Part shown: one piece after another, positions 10,619 through 28,403 of the stretch
Layout of the letters: each line of letters begins with the position of its first letter
How positions within the stretch are numbered: position 1 is the stretch's first letter
Assembly (NCBI RefSeq): GCF_013314895.1
Contig: NZ_JABTYE010000003.1
Location: forward strand, 62,001 to 126,000
Source: Cupriavidus gilardii
GTDB taxonomy: Bacteria; Pseudomonadota; Gammaproteobacteria; Burkholderiales; Burkholderiaceae
Reading direction: 5' to 3'
Length of the DNA: 64,000 nucleotides
The notes under the pieces: model-generated
The model's input: the letters and a program-made list of their open reading frames with translations, nothing else
Databases searched by the model: none
Told to the model about the DNA's origin: nothing
Program-made: the position numbers and the translations under genes

Positions 10619-10855
10619 GGCTGTCTCTGTCGATTTTCTTGAGTCGGAGCGCGACTTTAGCACCGAAATGGTGAATTTCGACAGTCAAAAGTGTTATGAC
10701 CCTGAGCGCAAAAATGCGGAACCAGGGGTTCCATAGGCGCCTCTGCCGGGCCTGCCGTTGGCCTGCCGTCGACCCGCGCCCGCCCCGTCGTGGCACCGGC
10801 AATCCATCCGGAAGTACAATCGCCCTGTCTCGTTTTCCGGAACGGAGGAATCGCT

Positions 10856-11719
10856 TTGAAAACCGTCACCACCGCTGCGAAGGCCTCTCCGCGGGCGCGC
10901 GGGGCCGCCAAGGCCGTCCCGGCCGTCGCGGCCAAGGCTGCCGCGCGGCCCGCGCCAGTGCCGCCTTCCCCACCGCCCAGCGAAGCGGCCAACGATCGCG
11001 GCGACACGCCGACGCTGCGGGCCTTCGCGCTGCTCGAATTCCTGGTCGCCGCCGACAGGCCGCTGACGCTGGCGGAGATCATGCAGGGTTTCGAGGCGCC
11101 GAAAGCCTCGCTGCACCGAATGCTCGGCGCACTGGAATCCGGCGGCCTGGTGATCCGCGAACCTGGGGCACGCAACGCCTATGCGGTCGGACCGCGGCTG
11201 GCCCGCCTCGGCGTGGCCATCGTCACCCATTCCGGTACCCGCCAGCTGCGCCACGCGATCCTGTCGCGGCTGGTCGAGGATATTCGCGAGACCGTCAACC
11301 TGACCATGCTGCACGAGAGCGCCGTGCTCTATCTGGACCGGATGGAAGCGCCCTGGCCGCTGCGGCTCGATCTGAAGCCGGGCTCGCATGTGCCGCTGCA
11401 CTGCTCGGCCAGCGGCAAGCTGCTGCTGTCGCTGCTGCTGCGGCAACTGCCACTGGAACGCTTCACGCAGAACACCATCACCGATGTCGAACTGCTCGAG
11501 GCGGAGCTGGACCGCTGCGCCCACAAGCAGATCGGCGTCGACAACGAGGAGTTCGTGGCGGGTATCAGCTGCGTCGCGGTGCCGGTGCGCGACGAGCGCG
11601 GCCAGGTAGTCGCCGCGCTCGCCGTCCACGCGCCGACGGTTCGCTCGCCGCTATCGCGTTCGCTGGAATTCGTGCCGCGGCTGCAGCAGGCGGCCGCGGA
11701 TCTGGCCTCGACGTTCTGA
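10856..11719 (+). CDS. IclR-family transcriptional regulator
   Basis: The 287-residue protein starts at TTG 10856, with GGAGGA six bases upstream. It has an unusual Ala/Lys/Pro-rich N-terminal tail of about 50 residues. The helix-turn-helix follows (LRAFALLEFLVAADRPLTLAEI, KASLHRMLGALESGGLV), then an IclR effector-binding domain from about residue 125 (LRLDLKPGSHVPLHCSASGK, the family signature around the ligand pocket, and EEFVAGISCVAVPVRD). IclR proteins bind small organic acids or aromatics and can activate or repress. Its position between gdhA and the convergent tauABC operon makes it a candidate second regulator of taurine uptake, but TauR (26889) is the expected main one. The target is inferred from position only. 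Confidence 0.85.
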   Translation: MKTVTTAAKASPRARGAAKAVPAVAAKAAARPAPVPPSPPPSEAANDRGDTPTLRAFALLEFLVAADRPLTLAEIMQGFEAPKASLHRMLGALESGGLVIREPGARNAYAVGPRLARLGVAIVTHSGTRQLRHAILSRLVEDIRETVNLTMLHESAVLYLDRMEAPWPLRLDLKPGSHVPLHCSASGKLLLSLLLRQLPLERFTQNTITDVELLEAELDRCAHKQIGVDNEEFVAGISCVAVPVRDERGQVVAALAVHAPTVRSPLSRSLEFVPRLQQAAADLASTF

Positions 11720-14598: not shown

Positions 14599-14960
14599 GG
14601 TCGTATTCCTCAAGAAAGACAGGTTGCGTGCCGCGATAGCGGGCGGCACGGAAGAATCCAGGCACCGGCGAGGTGCCTACTCGAGGAGGGGAAGACAGGA
14701 AGCAGGTCGCATGCCAATGTCTCCTTGCAGCGGACGGCTGTCGCGTCCTTCTATCGTCCGTCGCCACCTGCTGGTGGCAATCGGCGGCCAACGCCTTGCG
14801 CGTTGGGTAGCGCTATCGTAGGCAGCGCTCGGCGCCGGCCATAGTGCCACTGGGCGGCAATCGTGGGTCCAAGCCTGCAGGCAGCGGCGAACGAAGCCGA
14901 TTGGACCCTTCGGAGGTTCGTTTCCGTGCCGGCCTCGCACCATGACGGCCCGCCTTGTCT
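14599..14960. promoter_or_regulatory. tauA-pta divergent intergenic region, left part
   Basis: This 481-bp gap (14599-15079) separates the divergent tauA and pta genes and holds no convincing ORF. The left part carries several small inverted repeats: AGGCACC-N5-GGTGCCT (14660-14678), GCCACC-TGCT-GGTGGC (14763-14778) and CCAACGC-N5-GCGTTGG (14788-14806). They may be operators or leader hairpins of the tauA transcript. I could not place a confident tauA promoter. Confidence 0.4.
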
Positions 14961-15055
14961 CGTTTTAGTGCACGCTCCGTACCGTTTAACGAGATTTCTA
15001 TTGACCGTTGATGGCGGCCGCCCTATCCTTCGGTCAAATCCCTGTTTTCGGTACG
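14961..15055 (+). promoter_or_regulatory. pta-tauE promoter with conserved activator motifs
   Basis: A -35 TTGACC (15001-15006) and -10 TATCCT (15024-15029) are spaced 17 bp. Upstream, CCGTTTAAC starts at 14982 and leads through GATTTCTA into the -35. Downstream, GTTTTCGGTACG lies at 15044-15055. All three elements recur at the same spacings before xsc (20866-20940). A CTCGTT...AACGAG inverted repeat also flanks the upstream box. The likely binding protein is TauR or the IclR regulator. Confidence 0.7.
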
Positions 15056-15079
15056 TTTCATCCCATTTTCCACACCACC

Positions 15080-16168
15080 ATGAAAGCGATCCACCGCATC
15101 ATCGAGCGCGCCCGCTCGTCCCCCCGGCGCATCGTGCTGTGCGAGGCGGAGGATCCGCGCGTGCTGCAGGCCGCGCAGCGCGCCACGCAGGAAGGCATCG
15201 CCCGCATCGTCCTGATCGGCGATGCCGGATGCATCGCCAAAGCTGCGGAGCGGCACGGCATCGCGCTGCACGGCATGGAAGTGGTCGACCCCGCCAGCTC
15301 TCGGCTGCGCGACGGCTATGCGCAGCAATGGCTGGCGCTGCGTCAGCCCAAGGGCATGACGCCCGAGCAGGCGCAGCGCGACGTGCTCGCGCCGCTGTGC
15401 TTTGCCAATCTGATGGTGCGCGCCGGCGATGCCGACGGCTCGGTGGCCGGCGCGGTCCATACCACCGCCGACGTGGTGCGCCACGCGATCCAGATCATCG
15501 GCATCGCGCCGTCCTTCCGGCTGGTGTCGAGCTTCTTCCTGATGATGTTCTGCGAGCCGTTCCACTCGCTCAAGGGCGGGCTGATCTTCTCCGACTGCGG
15601 CCTGGTGATCGACCCGGACGCCGAGGCGCTGTCCGAGATCGCGATGGCCGCCGCCGACAGCGCGCGGAGCCTGCTGATGGAGACGCCGCGCGTGGCGATG
15701 CTGTCGTTCTCCACCAATGGCAGCGCGCACCATGCCGCCGTCGACAAGGTCGCCGCGGCGACGCAACGCGTGCGCGCGCTGCGGCCGGAACTGGCCATCG
15801 ACGGGGACGTGCAGCTCGACGCCGCCATCGTTGCCGAAATCGCGGAGCGCAAGCTGCCGGCGTCGCAGGTCCACGGACATGCCAACGTGCTGGTATTCCC
15901 GAGCCTGGAGGCCGGCAATATCGGCTACAAGCTGGCCGAGCGCCTCGGCGGCGCGGTGGCGATCGGGCCGATGCTGCAAGGTCTGCGGCGCCCCGCCAAC
16001 GATCTGTCGCGCGGCTGCAGCGCGGACGACATCTTCCATGTGATCGCAGTGACCGTGGTGCAGGCGCAGGCCGCGGACATCGAAGCGGGCGATGCCGACG
16101 CACAGATGACGCTGCCGATCGAGCTGCCTGCCGCCACGACCCCGTCGGGAGCTGCGCAGTCCCGATGA
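15080..16168 (+). CDS. pta: phosphate acetyltransferase
   Basis: Pta converts acetyl phosphate and CoA to acetyl-CoA, following Xsc in taurine catabolism. The 362-residue protein is the short single-domain form (PTA_PTB), lacking the N-terminal DRTGG domain of E. coli Pta. Visible family segments are RIVLCEAEDPRVLQAA, FANLMVRAGDADGSVAGAVH, SSFFLMMFC, VAMLSFSTNGSA and ANVLVFPSLEAGNIGYKLAERLGGA. I chose ATG 15080, since upstream in-frame starts lie inside the promoter. Its stop overlaps the tauE start (ATGA), so the two are translationally coupled. No clear Shine-Dalgarno sequence is seen. Confidence 0.93.
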   Translation: MKAIHRIIERARSSPRRIVLCEAEDPRVLQAAQRATQEGIARIVLIGDAGCIAKAAERHGIALHGMEVVDPASSRLRDGYAQQWLALRQPKGMTPEQAQRDVLAPLCFANLMVRAGDADGSVAGAVHTTADVVRHAIQIIGIAPSFRLVSSFFLMMFCEPFHSLKGGLIFSDCGLVIDPDAEALSEIAMAAADSARSLLMETPRVAMLSFSTNGSAHHAAVDKVAAATQRVRALRPELAIDGDVQLDAAIVAEIAERKLPASQVHGHANVLVFPSLEAGNIGYKLAERLGGAVAIGPMLQGLRRPANDLSRGCSADDIFHVIAVTVVQAQAADIEAGDADAQMTLPIELPAATTPSGAAQSR

Positions 16169-16938
16169 ATCCAGAAACCTTGCTGCCGGTACTGGCCCTG
16201 CTGGGCCTCGGCAGCTACTTCCAGACCGTGACCGGGTTCGGCATGGGTCTGATCGTGATGGGCGCGGCCAGCGGCCTGCATCTGGCCCCGGTCGCCACGC
16301 TGGCCGCGCTGGTCAGCCTGCTGACGCTCGCCAACGGCGCGCTGGCGTTGCCCGGCAAGCTGCACCATATCGACTGGCGCGCGGTCCGCGCCGCCACCCT
16401 CGGCATCCTGCCGTCGGTGGTGGCCGGGGTCGTGCTGCTGCACTACCTGAGCGGCACCGCCGCCGGCGTGCTGCAACTGATGCTTGGCGCCGTAGTGCTG
16501 TACGGCGGCATCGGCGCGGCCCTGCGCCCCGCCGCGTTGCCCAGCCGCTCCGGCGATGGCAGCTTCTTCGTCAGCGGCGTCTGCGGCGGACTGCTCGGCG
16601 GCCTGTTCGGGGTCTCAGGGCCCCCGCTGATCTTCCAGTTCTATCGTCAGCCGCTGAACATGGTGCAGATCCGCTGCGCGCTGATCCTGGTCTTCACGGC
16701 GACTTCCGCCGTGCGAACCGCCTACAGCGCCTGGCAAGGCGAACTGGCCAGCGACGTGTGGCTGCAGGCCGCGCTGGCCTTCCCGGTGGTCGCGCTGAGC
16801 ACGATCGCGGCACGGCGCTTCCCGCCGCCGCTGTCGGCCGAGGCGACGCGGCGGGTGGCGTTCGGGGTGCTGGTGGTGCTGGGCGCGTATCTGATGGCGG
16901 GGCCGCTGTGGCAGTGGTTCGCGGCACCTTCGGCATAA
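16165..16938 (+). CDS. tauE: TSUP (DUF81) sulfite exporter
   Basis: The 257-residue membrane protein has the two repeated TSUP halves and about eight predicted helices. The segments GSYFQTVTGFGMGLIVMGAA and GVCGGLLGGLFGVSGPPLIF are the paired family motifs. In Cupriavidus necator the DUF81 protein TauE exports sulfite released from C2 sulfonates. Overlap with pta by ATGA, and xsc nearby, support the same role here. The gene ends 10 bp before the 50-bp tandem repeats. Confidence 0.88.
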   Translation: MNPETLLPVLALLGLGSYFQTVTGFGMGLIVMGAASGLHLAPVATLAALVSLLTLANGALALPGKLHHIDWRAVRAATLGILPSVVAGVVLLHYLSGTAAGVLQLMLGAVVLYGGIGAALRPAALPSRSGDGSFFVSGVCGGLLGGLFGVSGPPLIFQFYRQPLNMVQIRCALILVFTATSAVRTAYSAWQGELASDVWLQAALAFPVVALSTIAARRFPPPLSAEATRRVAFGVLVVLGAYLMAGPLWQWFAAPSA

Positions 16939-16948
16939 CGCGCACGCA

Positions 16949-17070
16949 TAACGTAGCCGATCGTATCTGTTATCGCCGTTTCGCGGTCGAAAACCCGCTA
17001 ACGTAGTCGATCGCACCTGTTATTCCCATTTTTTGAGAGGAGACGCCATAAGGTGGTCGATCGTATACGT
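16949..17070. repeat. 50-bp-period direct repeats before the HipA-like gene
   Basis: A block starting TAACGTAGCCGATCG occurs at 16949-16973 and again at 16999-17023 (22 of 25 bases identical). A more diverged copy (TAAGGTGGTCGATCGTATAC) starts at 17049, inside the HipA-like frame. All three start exactly 50 bp apart, so this is a decaying tandem duplication. It could hold operator sites or record repeated duplication of the gene's 5' end. Confidence 0.8.
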
Positions 17071-17944
17071 CGATGCGAACGCCCCCAAGCACATGTCGGT
17101 AGCGGGCGCGCAGCACAAGCTCGCCGCCATTCTGGAGGATGGGCCGGGACACTGGTCCATCTGGGAGCCGGCAGGCGCGGAACCGTCCACGCATCTCCTG
17201 AAGCCGGATTCGCGGTCCGAGACGTGGCGCCACACCGCCATCAACGAGTTCTATTGCATGCGGCTCGCCGCACGTGCAGGTCTGCCAGTTCCTGCGACTT
17301 CCTTTTTTCGTGTGCCGGCGCCCGTTTTTGCAGTGTCACGATTCGACCGCCGCAGCAGCGACGGCCGGATTTGGCGACGTCATGTCATTGATGGCATGCA
17401 AATACGGGGAAAGAGCCGCGTCCTCAAGTACGCGCAAAGCTCGACGCAGACCCTGAAACAACTGATCGCGCTGACCTTGCAACGCACCGCGTCGCCGCTG
17501 GCGCTATTTCGGTGGATCGCGTTCAATGTGCTGATCGGCAATGGCGACGCGCACATGAAGAATCTGTCCTTCTTCTGCGAGCCCAGGGGCTATACGCTGG
17601 CGCCCTTCTACGACCTGGTCAGCACCGTGGTCTATGACACCGTCGCCTACCGCAACAACGACCCGTTCTGGCCGGACTCCGAACTGACCATGCCCATCGG
17701 CAGCGCTCGTCATTTCCGTGACATACGCCGTGAGGACGTGATTCAGGCGGGCATGGAACTGGGCCTGGCGGCAAGCGCAGCGGCGGCCGAACTGGACGCG
17801 CTGCTGGCAACGCTGCAGCGTGCCAAGCGGGAGGTGTACGAGCAAGTCGTGGCGGAGGCCCAGCCCGATGCAGGCGAAAGCCGGATCTTGAACTCCATCC
17901 TCGCCATGCCGCTCGCCGAGATGTCGAGGCAACTGCAACGCTAG
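17033..17944 (+). CDS. HipA-like kinase domain protein lacking the N-terminal subdomain
   Basis: The product matches the HipA C-terminal kinase core. It has MSVAGAQHKLAAI at the domain start, HLLKPD (ATP-binding lysine), NEFYCMRLAARAGLPVP, VSRFDRR, the catalytic loop NGDAHMKNLSFF and the metal-binding APFYDLVST. All catalytic residues look intact. HipA toxins phosphorylate GltX or other tRNA ligases and are about 440 residues with an N-subdomain-1 of about 100 residues; here only 303 or fewer are present. The start is odd: GAGGAG is followed by ATA (17048-17050) where ATG would be expected, leaving TTG 17033, with no clear site before it, or ATG 17093. No HipB-like antitoxin gene is adjacent. 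It could be a degenerated hipA, or a HipT-like short kinase without its partners. Confidence 0.7.
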   Translation: MRGDAIRWSIVYVDANAPKHMSVAGAQHKLAAILEDGPGHWSIWEPAGAEPSTHLLKPDSRSETWRHTAINEFYCMRLAARAGLPVPATSFFRVPAPVFAVSRFDRRSSDGRIWRRHVIDGMQIRGKSRVLKYAQSSTQTLKQLIALTLQRTASPLALFRWIAFNVLIGNGDAHMKNLSFFCEPRGYTLAPFYDLVSTVVYDTVAYRNNDPFWPDSELTMPIGSARHFRDIRREDVIQAGMELGLAASAAAAELDALLATLQRAKREVYEQVVAEAQPDAGESRILNSILAMPLAEMSRQLQR

Positions 17945-17963
17945 CCGGCACCACGTTGCGACG

Positions 17964-19766
17964 CTAGACTTGCGCCGCACATCCCCCGCTGCCCACCCAC
18001 CGCGCAATCGCATCGATTGCCGCCGTGTCCAGCGGCCGGCTGGTATCCAGCGGGAAGTGAAGCCGGTAGTAAGGGCTCAGGTCCAGATCGACGCCGAGCC
18101 CCATCAGTTCGATCCGCCCCTGCGCCTCGTGGCGTGCTGCCACGTCCTTCAGATGGTCGTCCAGCAGCCGCTCGCCGTTGGCCTGCGCGGTGGCGCGGTC
18201 CATCGGGCTGCCGTCGGATATCACCACCAGCAGGCGGCGCGACTGCGGGCGTGACAGCAGACGCGTGCAGGCCCAGTCGACCGCTTCGCCGTCGATCCCT
18301 TCGCGGAACAGGTCGGCCTTGAACAGCGCGGCGATGCCGGTTCGTGCGCGGCGCCAGCTGGTGTCGGCATCCTTGAACACCAGATGGCAGACCTCGTTGA
18401 GGCGGCCCGGCGATGGCGGCCGGCCCGCCGCCTGCCAGTCGCGCACCACGCGGCCGCCGTTCCAGGCGCCGGTGGTGAAGCCCAGCACTTCGGTGGCGAG
18501 GCCCGCGGCATCGGCGGCGCGTGTCATCACATCGACCAGCACGGCGATCTGGTCGATATGCGCCTTCATCGAGCCAGAGCAATCGATCAGGAAGCCCAGT
18601 ACCGCATCCGTACGCGGCTGCAAGCGCGGCTGGCAGAAGATGCGTGGCTGGCCGCCGGCACAGGCCAATTGGGCAAGCCGGCTGCGATCGAGCCGGCCCT
18701 CCTCCTCGCCCGACGACCAGCCGTCGGCCGTCGGAATCGCGAAGGCCGACGACAGCGTGCGCGCGATGCGGACCGCATTGATGCCGCCGTCGACGATGCG
18801 CCGGTCCAGGCGTTCGCGCCATGCTTGCAGCGAAGCCTGCCGCGCCAGCGTGGCCGCGCGCAGTTCGCGGTCGTAGCGGGTGGTGAAGGCGGCGTAGCCC
18901 GGTGCGAGCGCACCGTCCGCGCCGGCACGCGAGCCGCCCCGACCGGCGCCGGCTCCCGGCTGCAACGGGGCGTCCTCCTCGAAATCGAGCAACAGCGAAA
19001 AGCCGTCGCGCACGGACTCGGGAGCTTCGCGTCCATCCTCGTCGGACAGGCCGGCTCGCCGTGCATCGTCGCGCAGCATCCCGGCCACCATCTCGGCCGC
19101 GGCCAGCGCATGCTCGGCAAAGGCACGCTGGTCGGCGCGCGTGCGGCGCATGCCGGCGAGCGCGGTGCCCAGCGCCGGCACGATGGCGGCGCGCGTGGCC
19201 TCGATCAGATCCTCGGTCTCCTCGACCACCGGCCGGCCCGACAGGCGCGACCAGACCACCTGCGCCACCGTGTAGATCAGGATGCCGAATCGCCCTTCGG
19301 TCAGCCCCGAGCGATGGAAGGCCAGCGACCATTGCGCGAAGCGCCGGTGCAGGTTGGCGGCGACGCCCGGCATGCCGGCGGGCAGATGGGTTTCGCAGCG
19401 CAGTTGCTCGAACAGTTCGAACAGCAGCCGTGCCACCGGGTCGGCCGGCCGCAGCGCGCGGTGCAAGGCCGCGTCGCCATGCCGCAGGCGCAGCGCGGCG
19501 CCATCTACCGCGCCGCGCAGGTCGGCGAAGGTGTCGCGAGCCGCATCGGCGAGCAGGTGCGGCGCGTGCAGCGGAAGCGGCCGCTGACCGCGCCATAGCT
19601 TGCCGGCGCGGTAATGCAACGAGGCGTCCCCTGCCAGCGCGCGCAGGGCCGCCGCGCACAACGCCTCGCGCCGGCGCTGCGTCGCAGCCGGCAGCACAGG
19701 CTTCGCCTGCTCCGTCATCGCGGCGTCCGTGGCGGCCGACGCATCCGGTATCGCCGACACCGACAT
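17964..19766 (-). CDS. cobT: CobT-like VWA protein (cobaltochelatase subunit or MoxR-partner type)
   Basis: The 600-residue protein resembles CobT, a subunit of the aerobic cobaltochelatase CobNST that inserts cobalt into hydrogenobyrinate diamide. The C-terminal von Willebrand A domain, from about residue 395, has the MIDAS motif LIDCSGSMKAH and VISDGSPMDRA. The N-terminal helical part contains FELFEQLRCETHLPAG. The acidic linker is short (LLDFEEDAP then a Gly/Ala-rich stretch). ATG 19766 has GGAGG 7 bp upstream and starts 2 bp after the cobS stop, so the pair is coupled. No cobN is in the window, so cobalt insertion cannot be confirmed; AAA+/VWA pairs also mature other enzymes. Confidence 0.8.
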   Translation of the reverse strand: MSVSAIPDASAATDAAMTEQAKPVLPAATQRRREALCAAALRALAGDASLHYRAGKLWRGQRPLPLHAPHLLADAARDTFADLRGAVDGAALRLRHGDAALHRALRPADPVARLLFELFEQLRCETHLPAGMPGVAANLHRRFAQWSLAFHRSGLTEGRFGILIYTVAQVVWSRLSGRPVVEETEDLIEATRAAIVPALGTALAGMRRTRADQRAFAEHALAAAEMVAGMLRDDARRAGLSDEDGREAPESVRDGFSLLLDFEEDAPLQPGAGAGRGGSRAGADGALAPGYAAFTTRYDRELRAATLARQASLQAWRERLDRRIVDGGINAVRIARTLSSAFAIPTADGWSSGEEEGRLDRSRLAQLACAGGQPRIFCQPRLQPRTDAVLGFLIDCSGSMKAHIDQIAVLVDVMTRAADAAGLATEVLGFTTGAWNGGRVVRDWQAAGRPPSPGRLNEVCHLVFKDADTSWRRARTGIAALFKADLFREGIDGEAVDWACTRLLSRPQSRRLLVVISDGSPMDRATAQANGERLLDDHLKDVAARHEAQGRIELMGLGVDLDLSPYYRLHFPLDTSRPLDTAAIDAIARWVGSGGCAAQV

Positions 19767-19768
19767 CG

Positions 19769-20743
19769 TCAGGCCTCCGCGTCGCCGCAGGGCTCCAGCT
19801 CGGCGCCGAAGCCCCGCTGGAAATACTCGGCCACGATCGCTCGCTCGCCGGGCTCGCACTTGTTCAGAAAGCTGAGCCGGAACGCCAGCGCCGGATCACG
19901 GAAGATCTGGCAGTTCTCGGCCCAGGCGATCACCGTGCGCGGCGACATCAGCGTCGACACGTCGCCCGCGGCAAACCCCTCCCGCGTCAGCTGCGCGACG
20001 GCGACCATCGCGCCGACCAGTTCGCGTCCGGCCGCATCGGCCAGTTCCGGCACGCGCGCGAGCACGATGTCGATTTCGGCCTCGTGCGGCAGATAGTCGA
20101 GCGTCGCCACCACGTTCCAGCGATCGATCTGCGCGTGATTGAGCAGATGGGTGCCGTGATACATGCCGGTCAGATTGCCGAGCCCGACCGTATTGGCGGT
20201 CGCGAACAGCCGGAAATACGGGTGCGGCCGGATCACGCGGTTCTGGTCCAGCAGCGTGAAGCGGCCATCGCGCTCGAGCACGCGCTGGATCACGAACATC
20301 ACGTCGGGACGGCCCGCATCGTATTCGTCGAACACCAGCGCGATCGGCCGCTGCAGCGCCCAGGGCACGATGCCCTCCTGGAATTCGGTGACCTGCTGGC
20401 CGTCCCGCAGCACCACGGCGTCGCGCCCGACCAGATCCATGCGCCCGATATGCCCATCGAGGTTGACGCGTACGCACGGCCAGTTCAGCCGCGCGGCCAC
20501 CTGTTCGATATGGGTCGACTTGCCGGTGCCATGCATGCCCTGCACCAGCACGCGGCGGTTGCTGACGAAGCCGGACAGGATCGCGAGCGTGACCTCCGGC
20601 TCGAAGCGGTAGCCCGGATCGATCTCCGGCACGTGGTCGTCGCGCACGCCGAAGGCCGGCACCCGCATCGCGCTGTCGATGCCGAACACGTCACGCACCG
20701 ACACCATGCGGTCCGGTTCCACGCTGGCAAGGTCGATCGCCAC
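19769..20743 (-). CDS. cobS: CobS-like AAA+ ATPase
   Basis: The 324-residue AAA+ protein has Walker A GMHGTGKSTH, Walker B LVFDEYDAGRPDVMF and sensor region RLFATANTVGLGN. FVSNRRVLVQGMHGTGKSTHIEQ and VNLDGHIGRMDLVGRD are typical of CobS. I chose GTG 20743 (VAIDLASVEPDRMVSVRDVFG) because AGGAG lies 7 bp upstream. The resulting length fits CobS (about 330). It forms a hexameric chaperone-like ATPase with CobT in known systems. It is divergent from xsc, its start about 250 bp from the xsc start. Confidence 0.82.
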   Translation of the reverse strand: MAIDLASVEPDRMVSVRDVFGIDSAMRVPAFGVRDDHVPEIDPGYRFEPEVTLAILSGFVSNRRVLVQGMHGTGKSTHIEQVAARLNWPCVRVNLDGHIGRMDLVGRDAVVLRDGQQVTEFQEGIVPWALQRPIALVFDEYDAGRPDVMFVIQRVLERDGRFTLLDQNRVIRPHPYFRLFATANTVGLGNLTGMYHGTHLLNHAQIDRWNVVATLDYLPHEAEIDIVLARVPELADAAGRELVGAMVAVAQLTREGFAAGDVSTLMSPRTVIAWAENCQIFRDPALAFRLSFLNKCEPGERAIVAEYFQRGFGAELEPCGDAEA

Positions 20744-20865
20744 TTTGGTTCTCCTGGATGAGGCGGGACGGATTTCCCGGCTCCCGCAAACGCGCAGGCG
20801 CACGCCTGCCTCGCGGGGCTTCTGAACCGGATCATATCCAGTCTCACTTTTTGGCACAACTCATT

Positions 20866-20950
20866 CCGTTTAATGGATTTTCCTATTGACGCTGCCAGCG
20901 CGTCGTCCTACATTTCAGCAAAACGACAGTTTTCGGTACGACATGTACCG
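20866..20950 (+). promoter_or_regulatory. xsc promoter with conserved activator motifs
   Basis: A -35 TTGACG (20886-20891) and -10 TACATT (20909-20914) are 17 bp apart. CCGTTTAAT (20866-20874) lies upstream and GTTTTCGGTACG (20929-20940) downstream, at the same offsets as before pta. The downstream box forms a perfect inverted repeat CGGTAC-N5-GTACCG (20934-20950). AAAAC-GACA-GTTTT lies within the same region. The xsc ATG follows at 20993. Confidence 0.72.
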
Positions 20951-20992: not shown

Positions 20993-22795
20993 ATGTCCGA
21001 CCACACCCCCACCGCCGGCCCGCAAGCCATGACGCCTTCCGAGGCCTTTGTCGAAACCCTCGCCGCCAATGGCGTCACCGATATGTTCGGCATCATGGGC
21101 TCGGCCTTCATGGATGCGATGGACATCTTCGCGCCCGCCGGCATTCGCCTGATCCCGGTCGTGCATGAACAGGGCGCCGGCCATATGGCAGACGGCTATG
21201 CCCGCGTGTCGGGCCGCCACGGCGTGGTAATCGGCCAGAACGGCCCCGGCATCAGCAACTGTGTGACTGCGATCGCCGCGGCCTACTGGGCGCACAGCCC
21301 GGTCGTGATCGTCACGCCCGAGGCCGGCACCATGGGCATCGGCCTGGGCGGCTTCCAGGAAGCCAACCAGCTGCCGATGTTCCAGGAGTTCACCAAGTAC
21401 CAGGGCCATGTCACCCACCCGGCGCGCATGGCGGAATTCACCGGCCGCTGCTTCGATCGTGCGATGGCCGAGATGGGTCCGACCCAGCTGAACATCCCGC
21501 GCGACTACTTCTACGGCCAGATCAAGGCCGAGATCCCGCAGCCGCGCCGGCTGGACCGCGGCCCCGGCGGCGAGCAGAGCCTGGACGAAGCGGCCGAGCT
21601 GCTGGCCCAGGCCAGGTTCCCGGTGATCATCTCCGGCGGCGGCGTAGTGATGGCCGATGGCGTCGAGGAATGCAAGGCGCTGGCCGAGCGGCTCGGCGCA
21701 CCGGTGGTCAACAGCTACCTGCACAACGACTCGTTCCCGGCGAGCCACCCGCTGTGGTGCGGCCCGCTCGGCTACCAGGGCTCGAAGGCCGCGATGAAGC
21801 TGATCTCGCGCGCCGACGTCGTGGTCGCGCTCGGCTCGCGCCTCGGACCGTTCGGCACGCTGCCGCAGCACGGCATGGACTACTGGCCGAAGACAGCCAA
21901 GATCATCCAGATCGACGCCGATCACAAGATGCTGGGGCTGGTGAAGAAAATCTCGGTGGGCATCTGCGGCGACGCCAAGGCGGCCGCCGTCGCGCTGACC
22001 GAACGGCTGGCCAACCGCACGCTGGCTTGCGACGCAACCCGCGCGGCACGCGCGGACCAGATCGCCACCGAGAAGGCGGCCTGGGAGAAGGAACTGGACG
22101 AATGGACGCACGAGCGCGACCCCTTCAGCCTCGACATGATCGAGGAGCAGAAGAACGAGCGCACCCCCAACGGCGGCACCTACCTGCATCCGCGCCAGGT
22201 GCTGCGCGAACTCGAGAAGGCCATGCCGGCCGACGTGATGGTGTCGACCGATATCGGCAACATCAACTCGGTGGCCAACAGCTATCTGCGCTTCGAGAAG
22301 CCGCGCAGCTTCTTCGCGGCGATGAGCTGGGGCAACTGCGGCTACGCCTTTCCGACCATCATCGGCGCCAAGGTAGCGGCGCCGCACCGGCCGGCAATCT
22401 CGTATGCCGGCGATGGCGCCTGGGGCATGAGCCTGATGGAAACCATGACCTGCGTGCGCCACAACATCCCGGTGACCGCGGTGGTCTTCCACAACCGCCA
22501 GTGGGGCGCGGAGAAGAAGAACCAGGTGGACTTCTACAATCGCCGCTTCGTCGCCGGCGAACTGGACAACCCGAGCTTCGCCAATATCGCACGCGCGATG
22601 GGTGCCGAAGGCATCGTGGTCGATCGGCTCGAAGACGTGGGCCCCGCGCTGAAGAAGGCCATCGACCTGCAGATGAACCACGGCAAGACCACGATCGTGG
22701 AGATCATGTGCACGCGTGAGCTGGGCGATCCGTTCCGCCGCGATGCCCTGTCCAAGCCGGTCCGCCTGCTCGACAAGTACAAGGATTACGTATAA
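20993..22795 (+). CDS. xsc: sulfoacetaldehyde acetyltransferase
   Basis: Xsc is a thiamine-diphosphate enzyme that cleaves sulfoacetaldehyde with phosphate to sulfite and acetyl phosphate, the key step of C2-sulfonate degradation. The 600-residue protein has the three ThDP-enzyme domains. The cofactor-activating glutamate lies in VVHEQGAGHMADGYARV, and the ThDP/Mg motif is GDGAWGMS...FHNRQWGAEKKN. Segments such as IMGSAFMDAMDIF and STDIGNINSVANSYLRF are typical of Xsc rather than acetolactate synthase. ATG 20993 follows CCGGAGA. A strong hairpin and an APC permease gene follow on the same strand. Confidence 0.96.
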   Translation: MSDHTPTAGPQAMTPSEAFVETLAANGVTDMFGIMGSAFMDAMDIFAPAGIRLIPVVHEQGAGHMADGYARVSGRHGVVIGQNGPGISNCVTAIAAAYWAHSPVVIVTPEAGTMGIGLGGFQEANQLPMFQEFTKYQGHVTHPARMAEFTGRCFDRAMAEMGPTQLNIPRDYFYGQIKAEIPQPRRLDRGPGGEQSLDEAAELLAQARFPVIISGGGVVMADGVEECKALAERLGAPVVNSYLHNDSFPASHPLWCGPLGYQGSKAAMKLISRADVVVALGSRLGPFGTLPQHGMDYWPKTAKIIQIDADHKMLGLVKKISVGICGDAKAAAVALTERLANRTLACDATRAARADQIATEKAAWEKELDEWTHERDPFSLDMIEEQKNERTPNGGTYLHPRQVLRELEKAMPADVMVSTDIGNINSVANSYLRFEKPRSFFAAMSWGNCGYAFPTIIGAKVAAPHRPAISYAGDGAWGMSLMETMTCVRHNIPVTAVVFHNRQWGAEKKNQVDFYNRRFVAGELDNPSFANIARAMGAEGIVVDRLEDVGPALKKAIDLQMNHGKTTIVEIMCTRELGDPFRRDALSKPVRLLDKYKDYV

Positions 22796-24577: not shown

Positions 24578-24636
24578 CTGGCCCAATCGATTCCATCCAA
24601 CTGGCCCTACAGCGCGTCCCGGCGCTTCCCTATGCT
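24578..24636 (+). promoter_or_regulatory. candidate TauR site and promoter for tauXY
   Basis: Two direct repeats CTGGCCCAA (24578) and CTGGCCCTA (24601) start 23 bp apart. They resemble the CTGGACYTAA direct repeats that I recall being reported for TauR in Rhodobacter. A -10-like TATGCT follows at 24631-24636. The repeats would sit near -65 and -42, suitable for activation. The tauX start is at 24699. Confidence 0.45.
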
Positions 24637-26888: not shown

Positions 26889-28403
26889 ATGGCCACGGCG
26901 GGCAAGGGAAACACCTTCTGGAATCGGCTGCTGCAATTGCCGGCCGATTCGGGCCTGAGCCTGCAGGCCCAGCTGCGCCAGCAGATCGTCTCCGCGATCC
27001 TGTCGCGGCAGTTGCCCGAAGGCAGCGCGCTGCCGTCGAGCCGCGAACTGGCGGCGACGCTCGGTATCGCGCGCAATACGGTGATCCTGGCCTTCCAGCA
27101 GCTGGTCGACGAGCACTTCCTCGAGACACGGCCCCGGCGCGGGTACTTCGTCGTCGAGCAGTTGCCGAGCATGGCGCGGCCGGCGCCGTCCGGAAGCGCT
27201 GGCACACCGTCGAGCGCGAATAACGACAACGGGACTTCCGGCCCCGACTGGCGCGAGCGGCTGCCCGACATCAGCGGGCTGCGCGCCATCGTCAAGCCCA
27301 ACGACTGGCAGAACTATCCGTATCCCTTCATCTATGGCCAGTTCGACCCGGCGCTGTTTCCGACCGCGGACTGGCGCGAATGCTCGCGCATGGCGCTGGC
27401 CGTGCTGGAAATCCGCGGCTGGGCCTCCGACCTGATCGACCGCGACGATCCGCTGCTGATCGAGCAGTTGCAGCGGCACGTGCTGCCGCGCCGCGGCGTC
27501 TGGGCCAATCCGGACGAGATCATGGTCACACTGGGCGCGCAGCATGCGCTGTATCTGTTGGCGGATCTGCTGATGCGTGACGCCGTGGTCGGGCTGGAGG
27601 AACCTGGCTACAGCGATGCGCGCGCGATCTTCGGCATGCGGGCAAGGGAGGTGGTGCCGCTGCCGGTCGACGACTCGGGTCTGCGTCCGGAAGGTCAGCT
27701 CTCGCGCTGCGACTATGCCTTCGTCACGCCAAGCTACCAGTGCCCGACCACGGTGACGATGCCGCTGGACCGGCGCGAGGCGCTGCTCGCCGAGGCGCAC
27801 CGGCACGACGTGGTGCTGATCGAGGACGACTACGACACCGAAAATCCCGCGCTGACGCAGCCGATTCCCGCGCTGAAAAGCCTCGATCGCGAAGGCCGCG
27901 TGATCTATGTCGGCAGCCTGTCGAAGTCCTTCGTGCCCGGCATCCGGCTCGGCTATATCGTCGCCCCGAGCTCGGTGATCCGCCAGGCGCGGGCGCTGCG
28001 GCGCTACATGCTTCGGCATCCGCCGGCCAACAACCAGCGCGCCACCGCGCTGTTCATCTCGCTGGGCCACCACGATGCGCTGCTGCGGCGCGTCGCGCCG
28101 ATCTTCCAGCGCCGCGCCGCGGTGCTGGGCGACATGCTGGCGCGGCATCTGCCGCAATGCCGCGTACAGAATTCGCCGGGGGCGTCGTCGTTCTGGGTCG
28201 AGGGTCCGCCGGGACTCGACGCGCGCAAGCTCGGGGATGTCGCGCTGCGGCATGGCGTGATCATCGAGCCGGGCGATGTGTTCTTTGCCGCCGACGGACC
28301 GTCGCCGCACTTCCGCCTCGGTTACACGGGGATTGCCGAGGAACGGATCGAGGAAGGCGTCCGGCTGCTGGCCCGGTTGATCGAGCACGAGCGTCGGCGC
28401 TGA
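26889..28403 (+). CDS. tauR: MocR/GabR-type regulator of taurine utilisation
   Basis: The 504-residue protein is a MocR-type fusion. A GntR winged helix lies at about residues 15-80 (QAQLRQQIVSAILSRQLPEGSALPSSRELAATLG, NTVILAFQQLVDEHFLETRPRRGYFV). A class-I aminotransferase-like domain follows from about 130, with the PLP lysine in VGSLSKSFVPGIRLGY and IEDDYDTE. TauR of Rhodobacter has this architecture and activates taurine genes in the presence of taurine. ATG 26889 has GGAG 10 bp upstream. It follows tauY by 196 bp in the same direction. Candidate targets are the promoters before tauX, xsc, pta and tauA. Confidence 0.88.
   Translation: MATAGKGNTFWNRLLQLPADSGLSLQAQLRQQIVSAILSRQLPEGSALPSSRELAATLGIARNTVILAFQQLVDEHFLETRPRRGYFVVEQLPSMARPAPSGSAGTPSSANNDNGTSGPDWRERLPDISGLRAIVKPNDWQNYPYPFIYGQFDPALFPTADWRECSRMALAVLEIRGWASDLIDRDDPLLIEQLQRHVLPRRGVWANPDEIMVTLGAQHALYLLADLLMRDAVVGLEEPGYSDARAIFGMRAREVVPLPVDDSGLRPEGQLSRCDYAFVTPSYQCPTTVTMPLDRREALLAEAHRHDVVLIEDDYDTENPALTQPIPALKSLDREGRVIYVGSLSKSFVPGIRLGYIVAPSSVIRQARALRRYMLRHPPANNQRATALFISLGHHDALLRRVAPIFQRRAAVLGDMLARHLPQCRVQNSPGASSFWVEGPPGLDARKLGDVALRHGVIIEPGDVFFAADGPSPHFRLGYTGIAEERIEEGVRLLARLIEHERRR

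Follow-up and report, generated by a model that had tools for sequence, protein, structure and literature searches.

The genes pta and xsc, which encode phosphate acetyltransferase and sulfoacetaldehyde acetyltransferase, lie in the 64-kb stretch of DNA analysed here (the window), part of a 5.5-Mb Cupriavidus genome whose Xsc is 99% identical to those of C. gilardii and C. cauae. Both pta, together with the tauE-like gene that follows it, and xsc appear to be expressed from a sigma-70 promoter with a copy of the same palindromic operator on either side. The operator is probably read by a regulator of the IclR family, in this genome most likely by the protein that we call IclR-A. The operator pair, its spacing, its conservation, and the link between xsc and either IclR-A or a second protein, IclR-B, emerge directly from sequence comparison. 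Xsc is the desulfonation enzyme common to the taurine, isethionate, and sulfoacetate routes, and its control has so far been described through TauR.

A palindrome used twice around the pta and xsc promoters

Read directly, the region upstream of pta contains CCGTTTAAC (14982-14990), N10, TTGACC (15001-15006), 17 bp, TATCCT (15024-15029), 14 bp, and GTTTTCGGTACG (15044-15055), and the region upstream of xsc contains CCGTTTAAT (20866-20874), N11, TTGACG (20886-20891), 17 bp, TACATT (20909-20914), 14 bp, and again GTTTTCGGTACG (20929-20940). An earlier note on this DNA had described the series as CCGTTTAAY, a TTGAC −35 box, 17 bp, a −10 box, and, 14 bp later, an identical GTTTTCGGTACG at both genes, and this description holds, as does the CGGTAC-N5-GTACCG that it placed before xsc (20934-20950). 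The offsets that it called identical are exact for all later gaps, whereas the first gap is one base shorter at pta (N10) than at xsc (N11). A promoter scan returned a single sigma-70-like site per region, coinciding with these −35 and −10 boxes. By contrast, the three-element promoter proposed in the note is better described as one palindrome, of about TTTTC-GGWAC-N5-GTWCC-GTTTA, present in two copies around a sigma-70 promoter: the upstream copy, O1, lies directly ahead of the −35 box and the downstream copy, O2, directly past the −10 box, at an O1-O2 distance of 81-82 bp at pta and xsc. CCGTTTAAY is the right arm of O1 (at xsc, CCGTTTAAT comprises this arm and its flank) and GTTTTCGGTACG the left arm of O2; as both are arms of one palindrome, we rejected their reading as the sites of two different factors. 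At xsc, O1 is a weaker second copy of the O2 palindrome and reads GGCACAACTCATTCC in the window, GGTACAACTCATACC at the equivalent place in C. gilardii, and GATACGAATCGTACC in another Cupriavidus locus (L098). At pta, O2 with its left flank, GTTTTCGGTACGTTTCATCCC, is identical in all four genomes of the gilardii clade compared, the window's own included.

The individual elements are not all rare. Two exact copies of GTTTTCGGTACG occur in the window, and five matches with up to two mismatches (2.2 expected), a count reached in 8 of 100 shuffles; CCGTTTAAY alone, at one mismatch, is not above chance (7 in the window versus 6.0 expected). The composite pattern matches only the pta and xsc promoters in the whole genome, and when slightly loosened it was found in one of 299 genomes drawn from the family, the window's own, so that the wide occurrence before unrelated genes by which the note could have failed was not seen. 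Upstream of both promoters lies a further common sequence, the GTCTC pattern GTCTCRYTTTNNNGNAC, which recurs before iclR-A; these three upstream regions hold its only exact matches genome-wide, although the pattern was drawn up after the three sites were known.

A 27-bp matrix built from 36 xsc sites, the gilardii clade being left out, was run over the full 64 kb and ranked both operators of xsc, both of pta, and a palindrome near iclR-A as its five best sites (scores in Table 1), the next scoring 3.7; the background, estimated from 2 Mb of first-order random sequence, was 0.35 sites per 64 kb at a score of at least 8. With a second matrix, made from 20 sites in records outside the Burkholderiaceae (one labelled Proteobacteria only) that had been picked with the first matrix, the four xsc and pta sites took ranks 1, 2, 4, and 6, so that three of them were in the top five, whereas column-permuted versions of it placed none there in 293 of 300 trials and one in the remaining 7. 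Both matrices assume the G+C content of the window, so A/T-rich genomes score high, and each of 102 xsc upstream regions was therefore compared with 200 shuffles of itself: p was at most 0.01 in 100 of them (0.02 in L030 and 0.15 in L067), among regions that also supplied the 36 training sites. Since related sequences are not independent, these matrix and shuffle values are only a guide. The plain core GGWACN5GTWCC occurs 10 times in the genome, and only two of these sites, both in the window, exceed a matrix score of 8; its reversed control gave 43 sites, which means that the bare core is not rare and that the flanks matter.

We also searched with a sequence-only model, R1, which contains the xsc O2. 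In the window's own genome, where 150 of 847 first-look candidates were scored, it listed xsc O2 (E 0.002, the sole match with E < 1), C27:6499 (E 1.7), and C56:48309 (E 2.3), and neither xsc O1 nor the pta sites. At E <= 1, R1 found xsc O2 in nine of nine xsc-carrying Cupriavidus genomes, three of which (L003, L005, and L017) had contributed sites to the model, and gave one match (E 0.92) across four genomes lacking xsc. The C27 site (position 1498 of L205) is an operator-like GAAACTTTTCGTTCC scoring 18 on the xsc matrix. At position 717 of the window, an A/T-rich, palindrome-like GATATATCACATACT scores 20.9 with the distant-site matrix and 3.7 with the first one, probably an effect of composition.

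Conservation of the operator pair

We compared the best 80 of at least 596 Xsc-matching loci. Elsewhere in Cupriavidus and in further genera, the element past the −10 box of xsc is a palindrome GGAAC-N5-GTTCC with A/T-rich flanks. The core GGWAC-N5-GTWCC was found upstream of xsc in exact form in 28 of 79 loci (L068, whose contig begins too near xsc, was left out), with one mismatch in 35, two in 15, and three in one, the mismatched matches possibly including some that are due to chance. The spacing was evaluated in 102 regions, L068 and five duplicates of already named loci being left out, three of which had no O2 scoring at least 15. Among the other 99 promoters, 75 have their best second site at a distance of 79-84 bp upstream of O2, a range that was chosen after a first look at the site positions and that covers 6 of 91 positions by chance; the site within this range scores at least 8 in 50 of the 99. 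The spacing fits in organisms as distant as Shewanella, Photobacterium, Billgrantia, and Rhodococcus opacus.

Exact cores were surveyed in 1.69 Mb, comprising the 80 loci, the window, and three longer stretches from the clade, two of which repeat named loci. Of the 47 cores, 43 stand no more than 400 bp ahead of xsc, iclR, moxR, gabP, or another of the genes probed (the L071 core among them also falls inside moxR and has only vwa nearby), one of the remaining four is inside a moxR gene, and three are elsewhere. As aligned, an exact core stands about 64-70 bp before moxR in four Paraburkholderia and two Burkholderia loci. The CobT-like vWA and CobS/MoxR-like genes are thus probable members of the regulon. 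A CobS/MoxR-like AAA+ gene and a CobT-like vWA gene are close to xsc in 66 of the 80 loci, from Cupriavidus to Rhodococcus, and they possibly constitute a maturation or activation pair for Xsc.

Candidate regulators of the IclR family

IclR-A (P0003) and a further protein, P0005, both exceed the cut-offs of PF09339 and PF01614 and so belong to the IclR family; the best match of P0003 among solved structures is 1mkm, an IclR regulator. P0003 remains below the cut-off of five NCBIfam models, those of BhcR (140 versus 350), PcaR/PcaU/PobR (120 versus 285), KdgR (102 versus 275), IclR (85 versus 380), and AllR (66 versus 406). Within the locus stretches, IclR homologues occur in 60 of the 80 xsc loci and TauR in 29. 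In a set of 60 Cupriavidus genomes, xsc was present in 37 (at E <= 1e-150) and absent from 23. Orthologues of IclR-A were found in 12 of the 60 (74-100% identity, other matches having 37-50%) and those of IclR-B, a non-orthologous protein 42% identical to IclR-A, in 28 (87-100% identity). All 37 xsc-carrying genomes have exactly one of the two types, IclR-A in 10 and IclR-B in 27, and 20 of the 23 genomes lacking xsc have neither (Fisher 4e-13, kinship ignored). The three exceptions, G311 and G302 with IclR-A and G314 with IclR-B, all carry pta and are assemblies of 260 to 740 contigs. Furthermore, an operator scoring 30-41 lies 117-119 bp before the start codon in all 15 IclR-B genes fetched of the 28.

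In a tree of 68 IclR sequences chosen from the fetched loci, in which deep forks are weakly supported and long branches meet, IclR-B groups with the IclR proteins of the xsc loci of Azoarcus, Sulfuritalea, Halomonas, Vibrio, Shewanella, and Rhodococcus (19 sequences, support 100/99), and IclR-A belongs to another clade with Paraburkholderia, Pandoraea, Burkholderia, and Caballeronia (23 sequences, 98/97). The iclR-A promoter carries one of the three GTCTCRYTTTNNNGNAC matches as the composite element GTCTCGTTTTCCGGAAC, a candidate site of autoregulation, and the upstream block is conserved in 10 of the 12 IclR-A genomes. The palindrome situated between iclR-A and the divergent glutamate-dehydrogenase-like gene was considered as a conserved autoregulatory site and rejected because it was not found in sister species; its role is uncertain.

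The genome encodes another IclR paralogue, P0006, 45% identical, on contig C56. Its gene is divergent from genes for a GMC oxidoreductase and an MFS transporter (L204, G000:C56:43500-53500), an ensemble that we take to be an isethionate-type locus. At position 4814 of L204, beside the start of the P0006 gene, GGGACAAGTCGTTCC scores 28.8 on the xsc matrix.

Evidence for and against IclR-A as the reader

Several observations weigh against our assignment of a twin operator to IclR-A. At pta, O1 is weak and O2 has a single good arm, and O1 is also weak in many Cupriavidus with IclR-B (scores of about -4 to 13). The best second site lies elsewhere in 24 of the 99 promoters, including all eight Vibrio and most Polynucleobacter loci, and both the spacing range and the GTCTC pattern were settled with the sites in view. 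No IclR homologue was found in 20 of the 80 xsc locus stretches, 10 of which are full length. As regards the candidate autoregulation of iclR-A, the element conserved upstream of the gene is a half site only (matrix score -1.3), 11 of the 12 IclR-A genes examined have no site of their own above 8, and the 10718 palindrome was not found upstream of iclR in sister genomes. Finally, operator likeness alone cannot single out IclR-A, because the palindrome of the C56 paralogue also scores highly, so that the reader could be P0006 or both P0006 and IclR-A.

This last point leads to the most serious alternative, namely that a different IclR paralogue such as that of C56 is the main reader or that several sulfonate IclR proteins share the operator. 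The presence of GGGACAAGTCGTTCC in all four clade genomes fetched and scores of 26-29 beside IclR-like neighbours in three other Cupriavidus favour it, but xsc presence in Cupriavidus tracks IclR-A or IclR-B, and the GTCTC element is common to the iclR-A, pta, and xsc promoters, which makes this alternative unlikely in our view. Direct control of pta and xsc by TauR, a MocR-type protein, through these same elements seems quite improbable. The tauR gene lies 4 kb after xsc and, according to Suvorova and Rodionov (PMC5320631), betaproteobacterial TauR regulons mostly resemble alphaproteobacterial ones, which include xsc and pta. However, the TauR consensus given there is CTGGACYTAA in direct repeats, whereas neither the pta nor the xsc promoter contains CTGGNCYTA, which occurs once in the window, at 24601 before tauX, so that the earlier note was right to separate its element from the CTGG repeats of tauX. 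Moreover, IclR-B genes carry the palindrome upstream of themselves, and the palindrome persists at xsc where TauR was not detected: among 24 whole genomes chosen from the 80 loci and searched at E <= 1e-60, 10 gave no TauR match although their xsc O2 scores at least 22 and exceeds its own shuffles, and the xsc locus of seven of the 10 includes an IclR homologue. Some of these assemblies may be incomplete, at least one of the 10 being a metagenome-assembled genome, so that a gene may be missing. Neither the taurine specificity that the note gave to the operator nor its reading by TauR is supported, the operator being present at the gene of an enzyme serving several sulfonate routes, including in genomes where TauR was not found. 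The division of labour between TauR and an IclR protein that the note envisaged is, on the other hand, likely, because the element is distinct from the tauX repeats and an IclR protein is the reader that the evidence favours.

Two other explanations concern the nature of the repeated sequence itself. Mere residual homology, left by a recent duplication that placed the xsc promoter ahead of pta, would account for offsets that match almost exactly and for the position of pta, which comes directly after xsc in 47 of the 63 pta-containing loci but stands apart with its own promoter in this clade. The two promoters nevertheless differ outside the operator arms and boxes, and the arms of pta O2 are identical in four genomes; we regard this explanation as very improbable, duplication and function being in any case compatible. 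That the palindrome downstream of the xsc promoter is a hairpin of the leader RNA (an attenuator or a terminator) instead of a DNA operator is barely plausible: a scan did flag CGGTACGACATGTACCG followed by TTTTATGAAT as terminator-like, but the stem has only seven pairs, Aromatoleum and Azoarcus lack a T run in the right flank (GAAAAC), and the same palindrome also stands ahead of the −35 box, outside the transcript.

Proposed mechanism and relation to known systems

IclR proteins are tetrameric in known members, and members of the family bind palindromic operators near the promoter and act both as repressors and as activators. Assuming a transcription start 7 bp past the −10 box, O1 would be centred at about −61 and O2 would cover about +14 to +28. 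These positions would suit a tetrameric IclR protein that spans O1 and O2 or sits on both and so represses the promoter, by bridging or by a road-block at O2, with possible activation from O1. A pathway intermediate would then free O2 and might turn the O1-bound protein into an activator. BhcR is a glyoxylate sensor, and its likeness, along with the pathway, makes sulfoacetaldehyde our guess for the effector. In most other xsc-carrying Cupriavidus, the non-orthologous IclR-B would read the operators instead of IclR-A, and TauR would separately govern tauXY and perhaps tauABC.

It is conceivable, and we put it forward tentatively, that the twin operator has outlived its regulator, IclR-A and IclR-B having been swapped in the Burkholderiaceae while the pair and its spacing of 80-84 bp were kept, and that further sulfonate IclR paralogues share the site. 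If so, xsc would be a common switch for all routes yielding sulfoacetaldehyde, and IclR-A and IclR-B would be a naturally occurring example of regulators exchanged while the operator stayed fixed. The conserved pair, similarly positioned around the promoter in distant sulfonate-degrading bacteria, provides a precise candidate for both operator and regulator in organisms from Cupriavidus to Rhodococcus and draws the conserved CobS/CobT-like genes closer to the regulon.

The proposed mechanism belongs to a type already known. The window protein shares the HTH_IclR and IclR_C domains with E. coli IclR, PcaU/PobR, BhcR, and TtgV but differs from the named IclR groups in that none of the five NCBIfam IclR models that it matched reached its cut-off. 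SauR is also an IclR-type regulator. It comes from the same genus and regulates the sulfoacetate-inducible system of Cupriavidus necator H16 (PMC7057948), a sulfonate route that likewise passes through sulfoacetaldehyde, but it acts on the sau genes. The TauR regulon of Rhodobacter capsulatus and others (PMC5320631) also governs taurine dissimilation with xsc and pta among its members, but through a protein of another family (MocR/GntR) and through direct repeats, not a GGWAC-N5-GTWCC palindrome. The assignment of an IclR protein to xsc and pta appears to be new, no paper linking an IclR regulator to xsc having been found in the open-licence literature, judged mostly from listings.

Organization of the locus

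The genes follow one another in the order glutamate-dehydrogenase-like (− strand), iclR-A (+), tauCBA (−), pta and tauE-like (+), a HipA_C gene, the CobT-like vWA and CobS/MoxR-like AAA+ genes (−), xsc, and genes for a GABA-permease-like protein, a SnoaL-like protein, a DAO-type flavoprotein, and TauR. From their position, we take the SnoaL-like and flavoprotein genes to be tauX and tauY. The end of iclR-A is 3.4 kb ahead of pta.

Table 1. Genes and regulatory elements of the pta-xsc region (positions in the window)
Feature	Position	Strand	Basis
Palindrome GGAAC-CAGGG-GTTCC, between divergent glutamate-dehydrogenase-like gene and iclR-A	10718..10732	.	4th best matrix site, 14.4
Composite element GTCTCGTTTTCCGGAAC at iclR-A promoter	10827..10843	+	After TACAAT; one of three GTCTCRYTTTNNNGNAC matches
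iclR-A (P0003), candidate regulator of pta and xsc	10856..11719	+	HTH_IclR and IclR_C; xsc co-occurrence; clade tree
pta composite GTCTC-N7-TGCAC-N5-GTACC, including O1	14957..14983	+	Composite pattern; block largely conserved in four genomes
pta O1 TGCACGCTCCGTACC	14969..14983	+	5th best matrix site, 8.5
pta promoter TTGACC-17-TATCCT	15001..15029	+	Direct reading, promoter scan
pta O2 GGTAC-GTTTC-ATCCC (GGTACGTTTCATCCC)	15050..15064	+	3rd best matrix site, 15.6; strong left and weak right arm
pta, phosphate acetyltransferase	15080..16168	+	TIGR00651, 350 bits versus cut-off 311
tauE-like sulfite exporter	16165..16938	+	PF01925; overlaps pta stop
CobT-like vWA and CobS/MoxR-like AAA+ genes, divergent from xsc	17964..20743	-	Pfam
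xsc O1 GGCAC-AACTC-ATTCC, upstream of −35	20853..20867	+	2nd best matrix site, 20.6
xsc promoter TTGACG-17-TACATT	20886..20914	+	Direct reading, promoter scan
xsc O2 GGTAC-GACAT-GTACC (GGTACGACATGTACC), downstream of −10	20935..20949	+	Best matrix site, 27.7
xsc, sulfoacetaldehyde acetyltransferase	20993..22795	+	TIGR03457, 1084 bits versus cut-off 676
CTGGCCC direct repeats before tauX, TauR-type element, outside the xsc/pta operator	24578..24609	+	TauR consensus (PMC5320631)
tauR, MocR-type regulator	26889..28403	+	GntR and aminotransferase domains

The tandem CTGGCCC-N16-CTGGCCC before tauX is found in all four clade genomes examined, including the window's. A conserved block with TGG motifs, seen by eye, precedes tauA and may be another TauR site. 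The HipA_C gene (16947-17944), located between the tauE-like and vWA genes, may be an insertion, because the interval from pta to vwa is shorter by about 0.6 kb in C. gilardii and 0.9 kb in C. cauae. Three 20-bp repeats with a period of exactly 50 bp lie before it.

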